Assembly: GCA_025362795.1 (NCBI GenBank)
Contig: JANYFE010000089.1
Coordinates: 1 to 64,000 of the forward strand
Length of the DNA: 64,000 nt
Direction of reading: 5' to 3'
Origin: Rhodobacterales bacterium
Lineage (GTDB): Bacteria > Pseudomonadota > Alphaproteobacteria > Rhodobacterales > Rhodobacteraceae
The position numbers and the translations under genes were made by a program. This document shows, piece by piece, positions 372 through 53,481 of this stretch; the first letter of the stretch is position 1; every line of letters begins with the position of its first letter. Below the pieces are notes generated by a model. The model saw nothing but the letters and a program-made list of their open reading frames with translations. It was not told where the DNA came from and ran no database searches.

Positions 372-1015
372 AGCTTGGCGACCTGCCTCAGTGTGTTCGC
401 CAGATCGCCATACCCAGTGAAACGGCGCTCGTAGGCCAAACCAAGCCGCCCGGCACAGTCTGCGGCCTTGGCATCAAGTGTCGGGTCACTCGTCTGAGCT
501 TGATAGACCAACTTGGTATAATTGCCAAAATACATATCCCGCAGCTCCGGGTGACGGTCCAAACCCATCGGCCGCCAGACGAAGGCATCGAACTGTCGAA
601 CAAGAAAATCTGTCAAATAGAAGGCGGTGAATTCGGTTTCTGAGTGGGCGTGAAACACGTCATTGCCTTCAAAAAACGAATAGCAGTGCGGGCCCTGGAT
701 CATCTCCACTCCCAACTCCTTGCACTTTTCAAACAACAGGCCGCCTGTGCCGCAATCTGCATACAAGATGAAGATCGTCTCGTATGTCGCTTTGTGTTCT
801 TCGACGGCCCTAGCGACTTCGTCAGTGATTTTCTTGGGATAAAGGTGGAGTTTGGCGGGAAGACATTGGAGGTCCAGGTGATCCCAGCCGTTGATCCGCT
901 TCAGTGCCAATACCTCGTGAGCCAGAGCGCCGCAGGCGATCAGCAGAACACGGCCCTGATGGTTTGGCGGCAGGCCAGCCTCGGTCAGCTCCACGTCATC
1001 CGGTATCAACGCCAT
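368..1015 (-). CDS. DUF1638 domain protein of the corrinoid methyltransferase cluster
   Basis: This 215-residue protein matches the DUF1638 family: conserved stretches IACGALAHEV near residue 26, YADCGTGGLLFEKC near 84 and GPHCYSFFEGND near 107 contain cysteines that could bind a metal or cluster. No signal peptide or membrane segment is seen. It follows a tiny membrane protein and, further upstream on the same strand, the corrinoid protein gene. DUF1638 genes commonly sit beside corrinoid methyltransferase genes; a role in corrinoid maturation or reactivation is plausible but unproven here. The stop codon overlaps the start of the broken NTF2-like gene. Confidence 0.8.
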   Translation of the reverse strand: MALIPDDVELTEAGLPPNHQGRVLLIACGALAHEVLALKRINGWDHLDLQCLPAKLHLYPKKITDEVARAVEEHKATYETIFILYADCGTGGLLFEKCKELGVEMIQGPHCYSFFEGNDVFHAHSETEFTAFYLTDFLVRQFDAFVWRPMGLDRHPELRDMYFGNYTKLVYQAQTSDPTLDAKAADCAGRLGLAYERRFTGYGDLANTLRQVAKL

Positions 1016-1161
1016 TTCGTTCTCCGAACGACAAGTACCAGAACCAACGCGGCAAATCCAAACCAGGCGAACGACAATCCCAAAGCATAAGCCAGCCCGA
1101 CGGTCAGCCCGGCTGCGGCGATCACGACGGCGATAAGCGACAGAAAGGTCTGGGTCGGCAT
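1006..1161 (-). CDS. Small two-helix membrane protein
   Basis: A 51-residue product starting MPTQTFLSLIAVVIAAAGLT is almost entirely hydrophobic, with two predicted membrane helices separated by a short polar turn (ALGLSFAWFG) and a basic C-terminus ending VVRRTKWR. The ATG at 1161 is preceded by a GGAAGGG ribosome site; a longer start at 1218 lacks one and would add a non-hydrophobic leader. Its end overlaps the first codons of the DUF1638 gene by 10 bases, so the two are probably co-translated. No family is recognised. Confidence 0.6.
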   Translation of the reverse strand: MPTQTFLSLIAVVIAAAGLTVGLAYALGLSFAWFGFAALVLVLVVRRTKWR

Positions 1162-1221
1162 GTTGAGTATCCCTTCCCCCCCTAGATGGCCTCGGTGCAA
1201 CAGAATTCCAAGCGGCAAAGC

Positions 1222-1254
1222 AAAAGGCTCCGGGCAGCGAACCCGGAGCCTTTT
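1222..1254 (-). terminator. Intrinsic terminator after the corrinoid protein gene
   Basis: A near-perfect 13-bp stem (AAAAGGCTCCGGG against its complement) with a 7-base loop is bounded by A and T runs, so it can work in both directions. It lies about 15 bases past the corrinoid gene stop, between that gene and the small membrane protein, and would reduce read-through into the DUF1638 genes. Confidence 0.75.
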
Positions 1255-1269
1255 GGCGATCAGACAGCG

Positions 1270-1965
1270 TCAGGCGTTCGGGCGGTTGTGTTTACGCGCC
1301 ACGAACTGTTTGGCAGTCTCAACCGCAACAGCGGCATCCCGGCAATAGGCGTCAGCCCCGATCGCGCGGCTGAATTCCTCGTTCAACGGCGCACCACCGA
1401 CCAGCACGATATAGTCATCGCGCATGCCTTTTTCCTTCAGGGTATCGATCACGACCTTCATGTAGGGCATCGTAGTGGTCAAAAGCGCAGACATGCCAAG
1501 GATATCAGGCTGTTCGCTTTCCAGAGCCGCCAGATATTTCTCGACCGAGTTGTTGATTCCAAGATCCTTGACCTCGAATCCTGCACCTTCCATCATCATG
1601 CCTACCAGATTTTTGCCGATGTCATGGATGTCGCCCTTAACGGTTCCGATCACCATTTTGCCCATGCGCGGGGCGCCAGTGGCAATCAGCAACGGCTTCA
1701 GGATGGCCATGCCGCCCTTCATCGCATTGGCAGCCAGCAACACTTCCGGCACGAACAAGATGCCGTCGCGGAAGTCGGCGCCGACAATCGTCATCCCCGC
1801 CACCAGCGCCTTGGTCAGCGCGTCATAGGGGGCCCAACCGCGTTCAATCAGGATATTGACCGCCTCTTCAATCTCTTCCCGCAACCCGTCGTACAGGTCG
1901 TCATGCATTTGCAGGACCAGCTCGTCATCGGAAAGTTCAGAAAGGATGATTTCGTCGTCGGCCAT
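1270..1965 (-). CDS. Corrinoid (cobalamin-binding) protein of a split methionine synthase / methyltransferase
   Basis: The 231-residue protein has the two-part layout of methyltransferase corrinoid proteins: an N-terminal helical cap (about residues 10-95) and a B12-binding Rossmann domain (about 100-225). The cobalt-ligating motif is plain at 111-119 (GDIHDIGKN; His114 is the lower axial ligand), followed by MSALLTTTMPYM and LVGGAPL. It corresponds to the B12 module of MetH or to MtbC/MttC proteins. The homocysteine methyltransferase gene lies nearby on the same strand (3267-4286) and a pterin-binding partner would have to be elsewhere. Three-piece MetH systems have been reported in related Rhodobacterales, which supports, but does not prove, that role here. 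Confidence 0.88.
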   Translation of the reverse strand: MADDEIILSELSDDELVLQMHDDLYDGLREEIEEAVNILIERGWAPYDALTKALVAGMTIVGADFRDGILFVPEVLLAANAMKGGMAILKPLLIATGAPRMGKMVIGTVKGDIHDIGKNLVGMMMEGAGFEVKDLGINNSVEKYLAALESEQPDILGMSALLTTTMPYMKVVIDTLKEKGMRDDYIVLVGGAPLNEEFSRAIGADAYCRDAAVAVETAKQFVARKHNRPNA

Positions 1966-2091
1966 TTGGGCGCTCCTCGGGCAGGTGAACTGTCAATGGG
2001 GCCAAAGGCCCGCGCGGACTTTTCGATTTGCGACATGCCTCGGATGAAAGCCGACAGCAAGGGGGCGCGGGTGGAATTTCCTGTGGAGCTT

Positions 2092-2106
2092 GTTCTTATT
2101 TCGTTC
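2092..2106 (+). promoter_or_regulatory. Putative LexA (SOS) box GTTC-N7-GTTC
   Basis: GTTCTTATTTCGTTC is an exact match to the direct-repeat LexA site GTTC-N7-GTTC of alphaproteobacteria. It ends 12 bases before the ATG of the radical SAM gene, next to a TATAAA-like stretch, a position where bound LexA would block transcription. Confidence 0.6.
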
Positions 2107-2118
2107 TATAAAGTAGAA

Positions 2119-3207
2119 ATGCAACCCAAAGAAAACAGCATTCTTCTAGGACAGCGTTTGCGCGCCCGCGGGGCGGGGAGCAATGATACAGGGCGGTTTG
2201 AAGGGAGGTCGCGCATTGCCCATGATGATGGCTGGGAAATGGTCGAGGACGAGCGTCTGGTGCGCACCGAAGTTCGGCTCGAACGGCCGCGCTCCGCCAT
2301 CACCTACAACCGCTCGCCCGACCTGCCGTTTGATCGTTCGATCAACCCATTTCGCGGTTGTGAACACGGCTGTATCTATTGTTTTGCCAGGCCGACCCAT
2401 GCATTTCTGAACCTTTCTCCGGGCCTCGACTTCGAAACCAAGCTGATCGCGAGACCGGGGATTGGCAAAGTGCTGGAACGGGAACTCCGGGCAACAAACT
2501 ATCGGGCGGCGGTGATTGCAATTGGGACGAATACCGATCCGTATCAGCCGATTGAGGCGGAGAATCGGGTGACGCGCGAACTGCTTGAGGTGCTTGCAGC
2601 GTTTCGGCATCCCGTTGCCATTACCACCAAGGGCACGCTGGTGGAGCGAGATCTGGACATTCTGGCACCCATGGCGGCGCAGGGCCTTGCTAGGGTGGGG
2701 ATTTCGATCACCACGCTTGATCCGGTTCTGTCGAGGCGAATGGAGCCCAGGGTGGCGGCACCGTTGCGTCGGCTGGCCATTATCAGGCGGCTGAGCGAGG
2801 CCGGGGTGTCGGTGCGCGTCATGATTGCTCCGGTGGTGCCGGGACTGACTGACCCGGAACTGGAAACGATCATGGAGGCAGCCAAAGAGGCTGGGGCGCA
2901 AGCCGCCAGTTACATCTCGTTGCGCCTGCCGCTGGAGGTGTCGCATCTGTTTCGGGACTGGTTGGCGCAACACTATCCCGACCGGGCCGCCAAGGTCATG
3001 GCGCGGGTCAAGGAATTGCACGGCGGCAAGGACTATGATGCCGAATGGGGAAAACGTTTTCGGGGCGAGGGGTTATGGGCCGATTTGATGGCGCAACGGT
3101 TCAAAGTGGCTGTGGCGCGGCTGGGGTTGAATGCGCCCTTGCCGCCTCTTCGAACCGACCTTTTCAAATCACCCCCACGCTCAGGCGATCAACTCAACTT
3201 GTTCTGA
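2119..3207 (+). CDS. PA0069-family radical SAM protein (spore photoproduct lyase-like)
   Basis: The 362-residue protein carries the radical SAM cluster motif CEHGCIYC at residues 81-88 and the surrounding NRSPDLPFDRSINPFRGCEH block typical of PA0069/SplB-like proteins. The preceding RLRARGAGSNDTGRF segment is the usual N-terminus of this family, so the ATG at 2119 is chosen over in-frame starts up to 930 bases upstream, which only read the shadow of the corrinoid gene. The family is related to spore photoproduct lyase, which repairs UV thymine lesions, but the substrate of the PA0069 branch is unknown. A LexA box immediately upstream suggests damage induction. Confidence 0.85.
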   Translation: MQPKENSILLGQRLRARGAGSNDTGRFEGRSRIAHDDGWEMVEDERLVRTEVRLERPRSAITYNRSPDLPFDRSINPFRGCEHGCIYCFARPTHAFLNLSPGLDFETKLIARPGIGKVLERELRATNYRAAVIAIGTNTDPYQPIEAENRVTRELLEVLAAFRHPVAITTKGTLVERDLDILAPMAAQGLARVGISITTLDPVLSRRMEPRVAAPLRRLAIIRRLSEAGVSVRVMIAPVVPGLTDPELETIMEAAKEAGAQAASYISLRLPLEVSHLFRDWLAQHYPDRAAKVMARVKELHGGKDYDAEWGKRFRGEGLWADLMAQRFKVAVARLGLNAPLPPLRTDLFKSPPRSGDQLNLF

Positions 3208-3266
3208 CACCCGACGTCGGTTTGTTTCGAAAGAACGCAGTCAAAACTTTTTTCGAAGAAACGTGC

Positions 3267-4286
3267 CTATTGCCCGCGCCGTCCGCGGCGTTCGCGCTTT
3301 GGGTCGCCCGAAGTGTCGCCAGTGCCATCCGAAGCAGACGAAAACCCGCCGAGGGCCGCCTTGATGTCATCGACCGTGGGGCGCGGACCTTTGGGCCGGG
3401 TTTCCAACGCTTGGCGCATTGCCCGGAGGTGGTTAGGCATTGTGCCACAACAGCCACCAATGATCCGCACACCGGCATCGCGAGCCAAAACCGCATATTC
3501 GGCCATCAGGTCAGGTGTGCCATCGTAATGGATATGGCCGTTGTGATACTTTGGAATACCCGCATTGCCCTTGGCAATGATCGGGCGGGCGGTACCCGCA
3601 GTCTCGAACCCCAGAACGGTGCGCATCAGGTCAGACGCGCCAACGCCGCAATTGGCCCCGAACGCAATCGGCGGATTTGCCAGGTTTTCGACCATCCCGG
3701 CCAAAGCGGCTGAGGTGATGCCCATCATGGTGCGGCCAGCGGTATCAAAACTCATCGTGCCACACCACGGCATGCCTGCCAGTTGGGCGGCCTCGGCGGC
3801 GGCGGCGTATTCTTCGAACGCCGACATGGTTTCGACCCACAAAATGTCAGCGCCCCCTTCTTTCAACCCTTCGGCTTGTTCATGAAAAATCTCGACTGCC
3901 GTTTTGTGGGTCAAATTGCCCATCGGCTCAAAAATCTCACCCGTTGGGCCAACAGAGCCGGCGACCACCACGATCCGGCCCGATTCATCAGCAATTTCGC
4001 GGCCCAGGCTGGCTGCGACCTTGTTCAACTCTCGCACGCGACCTTGCGCATTGTGCAGTTTCAGACGCGCCGCGTTACCGCCAAAGCTATTTGTCAGGAA
4101 AATATCCGACCCGGCATCAACGGCAGACTTATATAAAGCGCGGATGTTGTCGGGGCGGTCGGTGTTCCAGAATTCCGGCGGCTCGCCGGCTTCAAGCCCC
4201 ATGTTGAACAGGTTGGTGCCAGTGGCGCCATCGGCCATCAACCAATCGCGCTGCGACAGCAACTTGGAGAGAGCATCCTGTGCCAT
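3267..4286 (-). CDS. bmt: Homocysteine S-methyltransferase (Bmt / MetH N-terminal module type)
   Basis: This 339-residue protein is a homocysteine methyltransferase domain, from MADGATGTNL near residue 17 to the zinc-site GGCCGT motif (Cys279-Cys280) with the third ligand probably in GANCGVG near residue 215. It transfers a methyl group to homocysteine to make methionine; the donor is betaine in Bmt or a methylcobalamin protein in split MetH. The nearby corrinoid gene on the same strand favours the latter. The C-terminus carries an unusual basic tail (PKRERRGRRGQ). It lies 2 kb from the corrinoid gene, with the convergent radical SAM gene between them. Confidence 0.87.
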   Translation of the reverse strand: MAQDALSKLLSQRDWLMADGATGTNLFNMGLEAGEPPEFWNTDRPDNIRALYKSAVDAGSDIFLTNSFGGNAARLKLHNAQGRVRELNKVAASLGREIADESGRIVVVAGSVGPTGEIFEPMGNLTHKTAVEIFHEQAEGLKEGGADILWVETMSAFEEYAAAAEAAQLAGMPWCGTMSFDTAGRTMMGITSAALAGMVENLANPPIAFGANCGVGASDLMRTVLGFETAGTARPIIAKGNAGIPKYHNGHIHYDGTPDLMAEYAVLARDAGVRIIGGCCGTMPNHLRAMRQALETRPKGPRPTVDDIKAALGGFSSASDGTGDTSGDPKRERRGRRGQ

Positions 4287-4301
4287 TGACCTGTTCCTGG
4301 T

Positions 4302-50273: not shown

Positions 50274-50942
50274 ATGTTGCGAAAAACCCTGCGGAGCATG
50301 CTATTGACCGGCGCTATGATGTGGCCGCTGGCTGGTGTGGCCACGGATGCGACGGGCCACCGCCTGTCGCCGCCGCCCGCTGCTTTGCCGCTGGTTTTGG
50401 TGCAGGACGAAGGCGGGTCTGACAATGGCGGCGGTGACGGGGCGGCGGCGCAGGACACTTCCGACGGTGTGGCGGACGATCCGGCCGACGCCGAGGGCAT
50501 ATCAGAGGACGCGACGGATCAGATCGTGGCCGACCTGTCCACAGGCTCCGCGTTTTGTCAGGGGCTGGGCGATCCCGCGCTGAATGTCGATTGCCTGAGC
50601 GACCAGTTTGCCGCAGCGGCCAAGGCGATGCCGGCCAAGGGCGGTTACGCTGCGGCGCGCAAGGCGCTGCTGGATGCGGCGGCCCGGCTGCATGCGCTGG
50701 CGGCGGCCAATGCGGCACCGGGCAAGCCTGCGGCCAAGGTCAAAGCGGGCAAGCGCCATTCCACCCGCCCGCTGACGGCGGTGGCCAACCCGGCGGCGGT
50801 GGCGGCCAAGGCGGCGGCGATTGTCACGGAAACCCGGCTGGTGCTGCTGCGGTCGTCGTCAGGGTCGGATCAGCGGCGGATTGCCTATGAACAGGTCGCG
50901 GCGGTGGTGGATTCGACCAAGGTTCTGCTGCGGTCCAGTTGA
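50274..50942 (+). CDS. Secreted alanine-rich hypothetical protein
   Basis: The 222-residue protein has a signal-like N-terminus (MLRKTLRSMLLTGAMMWPLA), an acidic glycine-rich linker (about 45-80), two cysteines in AFCQGLGDPALNVDCLSDQF that may pair, and an alanine-rich helical C-terminus with two LLRSS ends. No family is recognised. Its stop lies 4 bases before the first copy of the lysC-end repeat, so before the cassette arrived it was probably the gene next to lysC. Confidence 0.55.
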   Translation: MLRKTLRSMLLTGAMMWPLAGVATDATGHRLSPPPAALPLVLVQDEGGSDNGGGDGAAAQDTSDGVADDPADAEGISEDATDQIVADLSTGSAFCQGLGDPALNVDCLSDQFAAAAKAMPAKGGYAAARKALLDAAARLHALAAANAAPGKPAAKVKAGKRHSTRPLTAVANPAAVAAKAAAIVTETRLVLLRSSSGSDQRRIAYEQVAAVVDSTKVLLRSS

Positions 50943-50946
50943 CCTT

Positions 50947-50987
50947 AGCCCACCTTGTCCAGATCAAACGCGTCGTGCAGGGCCTGC
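50947..50987. repeat. Left copy of the 41-bp direct repeat (duplicate of the lysC 3' end)
   Basis: Identical over 41 bases to 52153-52193. On the minus strand it encodes the lysC C-terminus QALHDAFDLDKVG and, with the two bases before it, a TAA stop. It is separated from real lysC by about 1.2 kb. Confidence 0.9.
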
Positions 50988-51016
50988 CCGCAGTTCGGCC
51001 ACAATTCGCGGCAAGG

Positions 51017-52129
51017 ATGCGGTCAGCAACCCCGGGGCAAACGCAATTGAAAGTCGAACACCGTTTCCCGGACACCACAGCCCGCATTGGACATGCAGCC
51101 AAAAGGCTGGAAGTGCAGCTTGGCAAGAATCCGTTTCACGTCGTCAATGAAGCCGAATTTCAGGCAATGCTGCACGCGGAACTGTTGCAGGAATTCCCCG
51201 AGGAGGTCGCGCTGTCTTTGGCACCCGGTGTCATCGACCGTCGCCCCGGACAGCCGCTGAAGGGCAGGCGGGTCTATCGCGAGGCCAAAATCCGCCCGGG
51301 TCAGGCGGGGCAGGAACCTGATCTGATCATTCTGCACGATGCGGCCCAAACCATTTTGCCCAAGGAAAACCACGCGCCGTCGCGGTTTGTCTGCCCCTAC
51401 GCGGCGATCATCGAGACCAAGATAGACGCAACGCCTGCTGACATTCTGTCCGGGAAGCCCGGCCGAAGCCTTGCCGCCAGCGTGATCGACAGCGATTTGC
51501 GAAAGTGGCTGGTGCCGTCAGAGACCGGCTTGGTACTGAGCATCATCTACACGGCCAACCCGGACTGGTATGCGGGCTGGCCCAATGTCGTGACGGTGCG
51601 GCGGGTTATCGCGCCAGCCCCGGCGCGTCTGCCGTCCGCTGCGACTATCAAGGCGGCAACAGGTGCTGTTGGGCGGGGTATCGACACGATCCATGCGGCG
51701 TTCCGCGCCAAGCCTTTTCGTTACCTGAGGGAAAAGGACTTTGAGGCGGAACTGTTCAACGTCCTTCGAGCGGCCAGTGCTGTCTCCCCAGACGAGCTGC
51801 ATCCGGTCAGAAGCCAGTGGATGTCGGCCCACTCGGAGACTCTGGGGCGCCGGCGCAAACATGATCTGGTTGTCCTTGGGGCCGTGCCGGGCGCTCTGGA
51901 TTTGGAAGTCGAGTTGAAAACCTCGCATTCCGATCAGCACAACTGGTTCAGGAACAAGGAGTTGGTGCGGGAATTTGGCGCGATGCAGACACTTCGCGAG
52001 GCGGGAGTTCTGGATCGCGCCTTGTTTCTGATGTTCCGGTTTGGCCCGTTAAAGTGGCAAGGTGACGCCGCAAGTTTGTGCGCGACTTATCCTGCGGTCG
52101 AGTTCGATTACCGATGCTCGGAGGATTGA
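51017..52129 (+). CDS. Putative tandem PD-(D/E)XK nuclease-like protein in a lysC-flanking cassette
   Basis: The product of about 370 residues shows two similarly built halves. Half one has NEAEFQAMLHAELLQEF (44-60), EPDLIIL (Asp102) and IIETKID (Glu133, Lys135). Half two has REKDFEAELFNVLRAAS (238-254), KHDLVVLG (Asp283) and DLEVELKTS (Glu299, Lys301). Each fits the E...D...ExK order of restriction-endonuclease-like folds. The start is uncertain: the ATG at 51017 has little space for its ribosome site, and a TTG at 50939 would begin inside the previous gene and read through the repeat. The gene is alone between two 41-bp direct repeats, with no methylase, integrase or transposase. Confidence 0.5.
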   Translation: MRSATPGQTQLKVEHRFPDTTARIGHAAKRLEVQLGKNPFHVVNEAEFQAMLHAELLQEFPEEVALSLAPGVIDRRPGQPLKGRRVYREAKIRPGQAGQEPDLIILHDAAQTILPKENHAPSRFVCPYAAIIETKIDATPADILSGKPGRSLAASVIDSDLRKWLVPSETGLVLSIIYTANPDWYAGWPNVVTVRRVIAPAPARLPSAATIKAATGAVGRGIDTIHAAFRAKPFRYLREKDFEAELFNVLRAASAVSPDELHPVRSQWMSAHSETLGRRRKHDLVVLGAVPGALDLEVELKTSHSDQHNWFRNKELVREFGAMQTLREAGVLDRALFLMFRFGPLKWQGDAASLCATYPAVEFDYRCSED

Positions 52130-52150
52130 AAATCCGGCTGAATCGCCAGG

Positions 52151-53410
52151 TCAGCCCACCTTGTCCAGATCAAACGCGTCGTGCAGGGCCTGCACGGCGA
52201 GTTCCATGTATTTGCGGTCGATCAGGACGGAGATCTTGATCTCTGACGTGGCGATGACCTTGATGTTGACGTTTTCAGCGGCCAGCGCCGAGAACATCTT
52301 GGCGGCAACACCTGCGTGGCTGCGCATGCCGATGCCTACGACCGAGATTTTGGCGACATCGCTGTCCACCACCAGATTGGCAAAGGCGAAAAGTCCGGCG
52401 CTGCGGGCATCCTCCATCGCCTTCTGGGCGCGCAGCACCTGATTGGTCGGGCAGGAAAACGTCATGTCGGTATAGGCGCGTTTGTCGGCGGGGTGTTCAA
52501 GGTCCGAGATGTTCTGGACAATCATGTCGACGTTGACACCCGCATCTGCCAGCGGGCCAAAGATGGCGGCGGCGATGCCGGGGCGATCCTCGACCCGGAC
52601 CAACGTCAGTTTCGCCTCGTCCCGGGAATGGGCGACGCCAGAGACAACTTTCGATTCCATGATTTCATCCTCGTCGCAGACCAGAGTGCCAGACGTGTCG
52701 TCGCTGTCCTCGAACGACGACAGCACCCGCAGGCGAACTTTATATCGCATCGCCAGTTCGACCGAGCGGGTTTGCAGGACTTTTGCGCCCAAAGACGCCA
52801 GTTCCAGCATCTCCTCGTACGCGATGCGGTCCAGTTTGCGGGCTTTGGAGGTGATGCGGGGGTCGGTGGTGTAGACGCCATCGACATCGGTGTAGATGTC
52901 GCAGCGCACCGCGCCGAAGGCGGCGGCGAAGGCCACGGCCGTGGTGTCTGACCCGCCCCGGCCCAGGGTGGTGATGCGACCTTCGGCTGACACGCCCTGA
53001 AAGCCCGCGACGACGGCGACCTTGAAGCCTTCGGCAAACTTGGCGTCGATGTTTTCGCGCGGAATGCTGATGAAGCGGGCCGACCCATGCGCGGAGGTGG
53101 TGTTGATCGGCACTTGCCAACCCTGCCACGACCGGGCCGGGACGCCGATTTCCTGCAAGCGCAAGGCCATCAGGCCCGCGGTGACATTTTCGCCCGAGGA
53201 GGTCACGGCGTCGTATTCGGGGGCGTCGTAGAGTTTCGAGGTAGACTCCACCCAGCCGACCAGTTCGTTGGTCTTGCCCGACATGGCCGACACGATGACG
53301 ATTACGTCAAAGCCGCGATCCACCTCGCGCAGCACTTTGCGGGCGACGTTTTCGATCCGCGCCAGATCGGCCACCGAAGTGCCGCCGAATTTCATCACCA
53401 GAACTGGCAT
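52151..53410 (-). CDS. lysC: Aspartate kinase
   Basis: The 419-residue protein starts MPVLVMKFGGTSVADLARIE and has the kinase core (GRGGSDTTAVAFAAAFGAVR near residue 152, DVDGVYTTDPRI near 176) followed by two ACT domains (VEDRPGIAAAIFGPLADAGV and GMRSHAGVAAKMFSALAAEN) for feedback control by lysine or threonine. It phosphorylates aspartate, the first step to lysine, threonine and methionine. The end QALHDAFDLDKVG is duplicated 1.2 kb away. Confidence 0.96.
   Translation of the reverse strand: MPVLVMKFGGTSVADLARIENVARKVLREVDRGFDVIVIVSAMSGKTNELVGWVESTSKLYDAPEYDAVTSSGENVTAGLMALRLQEIGVPARSWQGWQVPINTTSAHGSARFISIPRENIDAKFAEGFKVAVVAGFQGVSAEGRITTLGRGGSDTTAVAFAAAFGAVRCDIYTDVDGVYTTDPRITSKARKLDRIAYEEMLELASLGAKVLQTRSVELAMRYKVRLRVLSSFEDSDDTSGTLVCDEDEIMESKVVSGVAHSRDEAKLTLVRVEDRPGIAAAIFGPLADAGVNVDMIVQNISDLEHPADKRAYTDMTFSCPTNQVLRAQKAMEDARSAGLFAFANLVVDSDVAKISVVGIGMRSHAGVAAKMFSALAAENVNIKVIATSEIKISVLIDRKYMELAVQALHDAFDLDKVG
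52153..52193. repeat. Right copy of the 41-bp direct repeat (native lysC 3' end)
   Basis: This copy is the actual end of lysC, from the last base of its TGA stop inward. The two copies differ only outside the block, the stop being TGA here and TAA in the left copy. Confidence 0.9.
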
Positions 53411-53481
53411 GGTCGGTTCCGCCAAATGGGGTATTGCGCGGGTTCTTTATGCGGCGGGGCAGGGCTGCGCAAGAGGCGCGG

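Follow-up and report, generated by a model that had tools for sequence, protein, structure and literature searches.

The lysC locus and its single-gene insert

The window analysed here, a stretch of 64,000 bp from contig JANYFE010000089.1 of a Rhodobacterales bacterium (GCA_025362795.1), carries at the 3' end of lysC a short insert with one gene, which is predicted to encode a tandem PD-(D/E)XK nuclease. The lysC gene lies on the minus strand at 52151..53425, and the longest frame of this open reading frame (ORF) starts from TTG 53425. The name lysC is the one given in an earlier note on this DNA. It has a match in all 16 genomes of the genus and, at E ≤ 1e-100, in 135 of 139 genomes of the family, the window's own genome being included in both counts. 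The last 41 bases of lysC occur twice. The proximal copy (52153..52193) is the lysC 3' end in place, and the distal copy (50947..50987) is identical to it over 41 bases at an offset of 1206 bp, as found in the sequence and by repeat search. The match nearly extends further, with 43 of 44 bases matching over 50947-50990. Both copies encode the lysC C terminus (...DLDKVG) and a stop codon on the minus strand, which is TGA in the proximal copy (52153-52151) and TAA in the distal one. On one side the match breaks off at position 2 of the stop codon, on the other it reaches 13 1/3 codons into lysC. The copies enclose a 1165-bp insert (50988..52152), of which the nuclease gene read from ATG 51017 (51017..52129, plus strand, 370 aa) takes up 1113 bp. 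The direct repeats around one gene and the repeated lysC C terminus with its stop, both described in the earlier note, are thus confirmed, and the remnant of a larger island that it also considered is a poor fit to an insert that consists of one intact gene.

Within the window, this is the sole exact direct repeat of at least 18 bp at 150-5000 bp spacing. The lysC flanks of relatives (1,406,793 bases) hold six exact direct repeats of at least 20 bp at that spacing, the longest of 25 bp, and none of at least 30 bp was found in these 1.41 Mb. Counting against the uniqueness of the repeat, exact repeats of at least 41 bp were found at four loci in 649,592 bases of the same genome (taken from where 40 of its contigs start, and including about 7.7 kb of N); L280, L296 and L302 are short-period or repetitive stretches and L303 is a tRNA-Gly gene pair. 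A 79-bp repeat on contig C34, with copies 3342 bp apart, was set aside as explained by two tRNA-Gly genes, and a 38-bp match of 84% identity on contig C1 was rejected as a further lysC end, since it sits within a different gene. At L280 (contig C11), positions 900-4300 are repetitive, with a period of 819 bp and identical stretches of up to 89 bp, and the repeats probably lie in one coding gene. A 17-bp palindrome, CGTGCAGG-G-CCTGCACG (52180..52196), lies inside lysC, with one match in the window and none in 100 shuffles. The inner end of the duplication (52193) falls within its right arm; the palindrome may be incidental, being lysC coding sequence.

The state of the locus without the insert was found in the same genus. 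The genus set comprised 16 genomes including the window's own, and 14 lysC flanks were fetched (G003, whose contig ends there, was left out). In 5 of these 14 loci (L175, L173, L180, L182 and L181), an orthologue of the 222-aa gene that adjoins the distal repeat in the window lies 14-343 bp past the lysC stop. These five loci have a single lysC end, and their genomes are without a nuclease match. G002 and G013 show a plain lysC/222-aa junction, and no 222-aa orthologue was found within the 4 kb or less searched past lysC at the other nine loci. The nuclease gene had no match in any of the 15 other genus genomes searched, several of which are only 75-90% complete. Because such empty relatives exist, the arrangement is read as an insertion, and the single-copy site that the earlier note proposed to look for was found. 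No searched relative carries the gene here at all, so the contrary case that it named, the same gene at this place with no repeat, was not encountered.

Second copies of their own lysC end were sought in 100 relatives (14 from the genus and 86 from the family, with up to 15 kb downstream of lysC in each and just 2-7 kb in some), and there were none. The best match in these relatives, 17 bp within a coding frame of L249, scored 34.2 bits, compared with a control maximum of 30.2 bits and 81.8 bits in the window. Because none of the 100 has a second end, the duplication goes with the insertion, and it seems that lysC ends are not commonly used for integration in this family. The idea of lysC as a general integration site was dropped on the same count. 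The distal copy is non-coding and yet still identical, which suggests that the insertion event was probably recent.

A predicted tandem nuclease and its place in mobile DNA

The 370-aa reading from ATG 51017 gives exactly the residue numbers of the earlier note. The N-terminal half (about residues 45-195; 51149..51601, plus strand) carries D102, E133 and K135, and the C-terminal half (about residues 231-370; 51707..52126, plus strand) carries D283, E299 and K301, followed by an invariant TSHSDQHNW. These six residues, forming D...ExK in each half, are invariant in three of three proteins, those of the window and of its two homologues, L056 and L058. In predicted models, each half resembles PD-(D/E)XK nucleases, with a restriction-endonuclease-like core fold present. 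Both motif and fold thus bear out the two nuclease halves that had been proposed from the sequence. The proteins of the window and L056 differ with a nonsynonymous divergence (dN) of 0.35 vs a synonymous divergence (dS) of 2.9, and the other pairs are saturated. A recent internal duplication as the origin of the two halves was rejected, as the profile comparison was not significant (E 0.084 over 21 columns).

Conserved motifs and predicted fold make the protein a putative nuclease whose single chain holds two complete PD-(D/E)XK catalytic domains. In sequence and predicted fold, it fits the PD-(D/E)XK superfamily, with nuclease activity predicted; it shares the predicted core fold and one D...ExK per half with members such as AF1548 (1y88), BstEII, BamHI, Card1/Can2 and McrBC. 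Families missing from the VIA-align lists may be close as well. The protein differs from these members in having two complete active sites per chain, and neither a helicase nor a CARF or methylase domain was detected in it. As for type II restriction-modification, no adjacent DNA methyltransferase was found among nine L056 proteins or the neighbours scanned in the window and L058. The nuclease protein has no significant match in Pfam, PADLOC, PHROGs, NCBIfam or PDB sequences, the best scores being E 0.033 in NCBIfam and 0.51 in PDB. Judged by these searches, the protein represents a sparse, undescribed family, and the libraries searched do not recognise the tandem nuclease.

Only two homologues were found, one on a phage contig (L056, 61%) and one in a Roseovarius genome (L058, 50%). 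Nuclease searches of 16 genus, 394 family, 390 order and 398 phylum genomes, overlapping sets that are all samples, returned only the window's own genome. The class search (385 genomes, E ≤ 1) gave weak matches in 49 other genomes, the best of 2.9e-4 over 121 residues (L027); this was taken as chance because about 0.1 such match is expected at 385 genomes. L058 was found by a contig search with two query sequences, the first contig search having given none, and phage and plasmid records yielded at most one match, within a helicase gene (E 0.1). The search for homologues at lysC ends, which the earlier note had suggested, thus yielded two homologues in mobile DNA and none at lysC.

L056 is a fragment of a lambda-like phage with genes for portal, head protease, decoration, capsid E, attachment, DUF6441, nuclease, tail terminator and tail tube. 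In L058, the nuclease gene lies about 200 bp from a tyrosine-recombinase fragment (27.2 bits, Pfam cut-off 27.1) and about 600 bp from an IS91-type Y2 transposase with tyrosine recombinase; only 757 bp precede the gene, and a longer element is possible. By eye, alignable DNA among the window, L056 and L058 ends at the gene ends. A perfect 14-bp inverted repeat directly follows the L056 nuclease gene (L056:6072-6110); folded as DNA with its flanks, it gives -15.3 kcal/mol and z -3.74. The window copy has only shorter predicted hairpins between the gene and lysC.

The L056 nuclease occupies the junction between DUF6441 and the tail terminator (L056:4921-6190), which is a site of very diverse cargo. 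At least 110 DUF6441 loci were collected (L056 itself, 79 further viral contigs and 30 loci in host genomes, the best of both lists); 15 with no terminator match in the stretch and 12 on the other strand were left unscored. Among the 83 scored junctions (L056 and 82 other loci among L061-L169), 70, L056 included, are occupied by 430-3233 bp of extra DNA and 13 are empty; some contigs are near-duplicates, so independent events number fewer than 83. In those L056 relatives that were inspected, reading and a Pfam tally found the site empty or holding ParD/ParE-like pairs, LysR with cupin, or a 458-aa gene with a radical-SAM gene. Over 79 cargo rows, Pfam gave 51 families, with ParE in three rows, HipA, QueC, NYN and many metabolic families. 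PADLOC gave 17 families, the best being prokaryotic viperin (E 8.6e-82), vs 12 families (mad3, mad8, AriA, Csa3, CasR, GajA and others) in a control of 79 host ORFs. The junction is thus a cargo hotspot in which some antiviral-like and toxin-antitoxin genes occur, but it has not been shown to be a defence hotspot. Of the three family members, only the L056 homologue lies at such a site. One cargo pair (L078:577-2823) consists of a 458-aa protein, possibly a NYN member, followed by a 289-aa radical-SAM-like protein; the tally names no members, and the latter is probably the viperin match.

Prophage hotspots that carry anti-phage systems are a published pattern (PMC9122126). Like the P2/P4 anti-phage hotspots, the DUF6441 site is a small, high-turnover locus between conserved phage genes and includes toxin-antitoxin and viperin genes. 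Unlike them, it lies within the head-tail operon of lambda-like Rhodobacterales phages, and defence is not clearly enriched. A literature search on DUF6441 found no paper. The junction can serve as an anchor for collecting further phage cargo. The window's own genome carries a prophage (L140, contig C83) whose DUF6441 protein shares 94% identity with its L056 counterpart. Phages close to L056 therefore infect the window's host, and they could plausibly have brought the gene in. At the same hotspot this prophage has a different cargo, a 368-aa protein (L140:2239-3345) with, by eye, a signal-peptide-like start.

Possible insertion routes and role

We tentatively propose, with a little less than even confidence, that the locus holds a one-gene mobile cargo nuclease cassette, whose insertion step and anti-phage role are the conjectural parts. 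Mobile DNA of Rhodobacterales carries the nuclease gene as cargo, in the phage head-tail hotspot and, in Roseovarius, near a recombinase fragment and a transposase. In the window, the gene lies at the lysC 3' end between the two 41-bp copies, and lysC retains its last codons and stop. The gene would be expressed by read-through from the upstream 222-aa gene, and its most likely role would be restriction of phage or plasmid DNA, with one active site per strand. As a relative of the gene is carried by a phage, it may be a travelling anti-virus gene. This would make the locus a compact, seemingly recent case of one cargo gene moving between phage and chromosome with no visible recombinase, and it points to an unannotated family of nucleases with two active sites.

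Several observations weigh against the cassette proposal. At E ≤ 1, PADLOC matched none of the three family members, and defence families in the hotspot cargo were not clearly more numerous than in the control. The relatives lack a second lysC end. No direct repeats were found around the homologues, down to 18 bp for L056 and 16 bp for L058. In addition, a six-frame search of the window's contig gave no tyrosine-integrase match (serine recombinases were not searched). The earlier note's remark that no integrase is visible holds for the tyrosine type on this contig.

Two routes to the duplication are close in standing. Slightly favoured is recombination by an integrase from elsewhere, acting in trans on a 41-bp sequence that matches the lysC end, because gene 3' ends are classic att sites. 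As a full explanation, this would make the insert the cargo of a site-specific integrative element, with the copies as attL and attR and a tyrosine or serine integrase supplied from elsewhere; it is possible, and we consider it to have about one chance in three. The repeat is the 3' end of a gene up to its stop and restores that gene, its length and place are typical of att cores, the identity of 41 in 41 bases suggests a recent event, and there are five tyrosine-recombinase matches elsewhere in the genome. However, the insert has no tyrosine-integrase match, and its long ORF matched no integrase in library scans. The empty lysC ends of the 100 relatives also speak against it, and so does the absence of the exact 30-bp repeat core from the viral contigs searched (wider collections were left unscanned). 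The centre of the boundary palindrome is 1 bp, compared with the usual integrase overlap of 6-8 bp. The use of the lysC 3' end as an attachment site, as suggested in the earlier note, is thus not supported. The insert resembles integrase-less elements flanked by att sites (CIMEs) in that direct repeats at the 3' end of a gene enclose its cargo and no recombinase of its own was detected, but it is unlike them in being one gene of 1.2 kb and in the lack of a second lysC end among relatives. It would behave like such elements and like phage cargo nucleases; with no integrase detected, no related element at the site and no PADLOC match, it cannot be filed as a CIME or a known defence system.

Nearly as likely for the duplication step is homology-facilitated illegitimate recombination with incoming DNA. 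A fragment from a donor strain with the nuclease downstream of lysC would have recombined in lysC, and its other end would have been joined illegitimately 41 bp inside the resident lysC end; as an account of the whole locus, we hold this to be somewhat unlikely, though a serious candidate. It explains why identity ends at the stop codon, where strain flanks diverge, and it also explains the TAA and TGA stops, the absent integrase and the lack of any other element at lysC. The missing integrase or helper element at lysC indeed speaks for this route. The fragment could be packed by a gene transfer agent or a phage, and gene transfer agents occur in the family: in one survey, they account for 22 of 173 putative prophages (PMC8224337). 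On the other side, the searches turned up no donor genome in which the nuclease follows lysC, and with the nearest of the lysC loci searched only 84% identical, donor and recipient strains are unsampled.

A free-standing homing endonuclease, which cuts empty alleles, is copied in by repair and so spreads its own gene, is improbable for this locus. The insert is a nuclease-only unit, which fits. But plain homing is not known to leave a 41-bp duplication, and the three members sit at three sites with no shared flank seen in the alignment. A target motif shared by lysC and L056 (0.002 vs shuffles, 0.014 vs 41-mers of the window, in eight tests) was dropped because four near-identical empty junctions among 110 score higher; the 17-bp likeness of the lysC repeat to the phage flank is thus unremarkable. 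PD-(D/E)-XK is among the known homing families (PMC6083498). Homing genes cluster intergenically among essential phage structural genes (PMC10448857), and the L056 nuclease gene has such a position. Compared with the phage homing endonucleases of that paper, the family is alike as a nuclease-only mobile gene beside essential structural genes, and it differs in that no target site is common to the three members and a duplication is present at only one.

Two further explanations can be set aside as very improbable. A nuclease-only element has very little to recommend it: each of the two active sites would nick one strand, the nicks lying some 41 nt from each other, fill-in around the incoming gene would give a 41-bp target-site duplication, and the result would be a minimal transposon that lacks a transposase, an integrase and terminal repeats. 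Such a stagger of the element's own making is weakened by the other two nuclease copies, which have no flanking repeats. An assembly artefact, in which a short-read assembler joined contigs at a shared 41-mer, is equally remote: the assembly has 108 contigs and 41 is a step in some assembler k-mer lists, but the ends that nine measured contig pairs have in common are 138-141 bp long, which suggests a final k near 141, at which a 41-bp repeat should be resolved, exact repeats of 89 and 122 bp were resolved, and even an artefact would require the foreign piece to carry 41 bp of the lysC end.

Gene start, composition and the neighbouring gene

The true start of the nuclease gene is uncertain, because its frame is open back to TTG 50939 (396 aa) and runs through the distal repeat; TTG 51047 is another possible start. 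TTG 50939 overlaps the stop of the 222-aa gene (TTGA), and because of this overlap, translation of the nuclease could be coupled to that gene, judging from the sequence. GC at third codon positions is 0.70 in the nuclease gene vs 0.78-0.82 in four nearby genes, and overall GC is uninformative (0.60 in the insert vs 0.62 in the window). A promoter scan found no sigma-70-like promoter, terminator-like sites numbered one, fewer than in shuffles, and an Rfam search of the window gave no match.

The 222-aa gene (50274..50942, plus strand), a lysC neighbour in part of the genus, is an ORF of unknown family with no NCBIfam or Pfam match. Its end, VVDSTKVLLR (50903-50935), recurs elsewhere in the genome at L002:1501-1533 (contig C43) with 97% identity over 33 bases, where it is the terminus of an apparently longer, repetitive protein.

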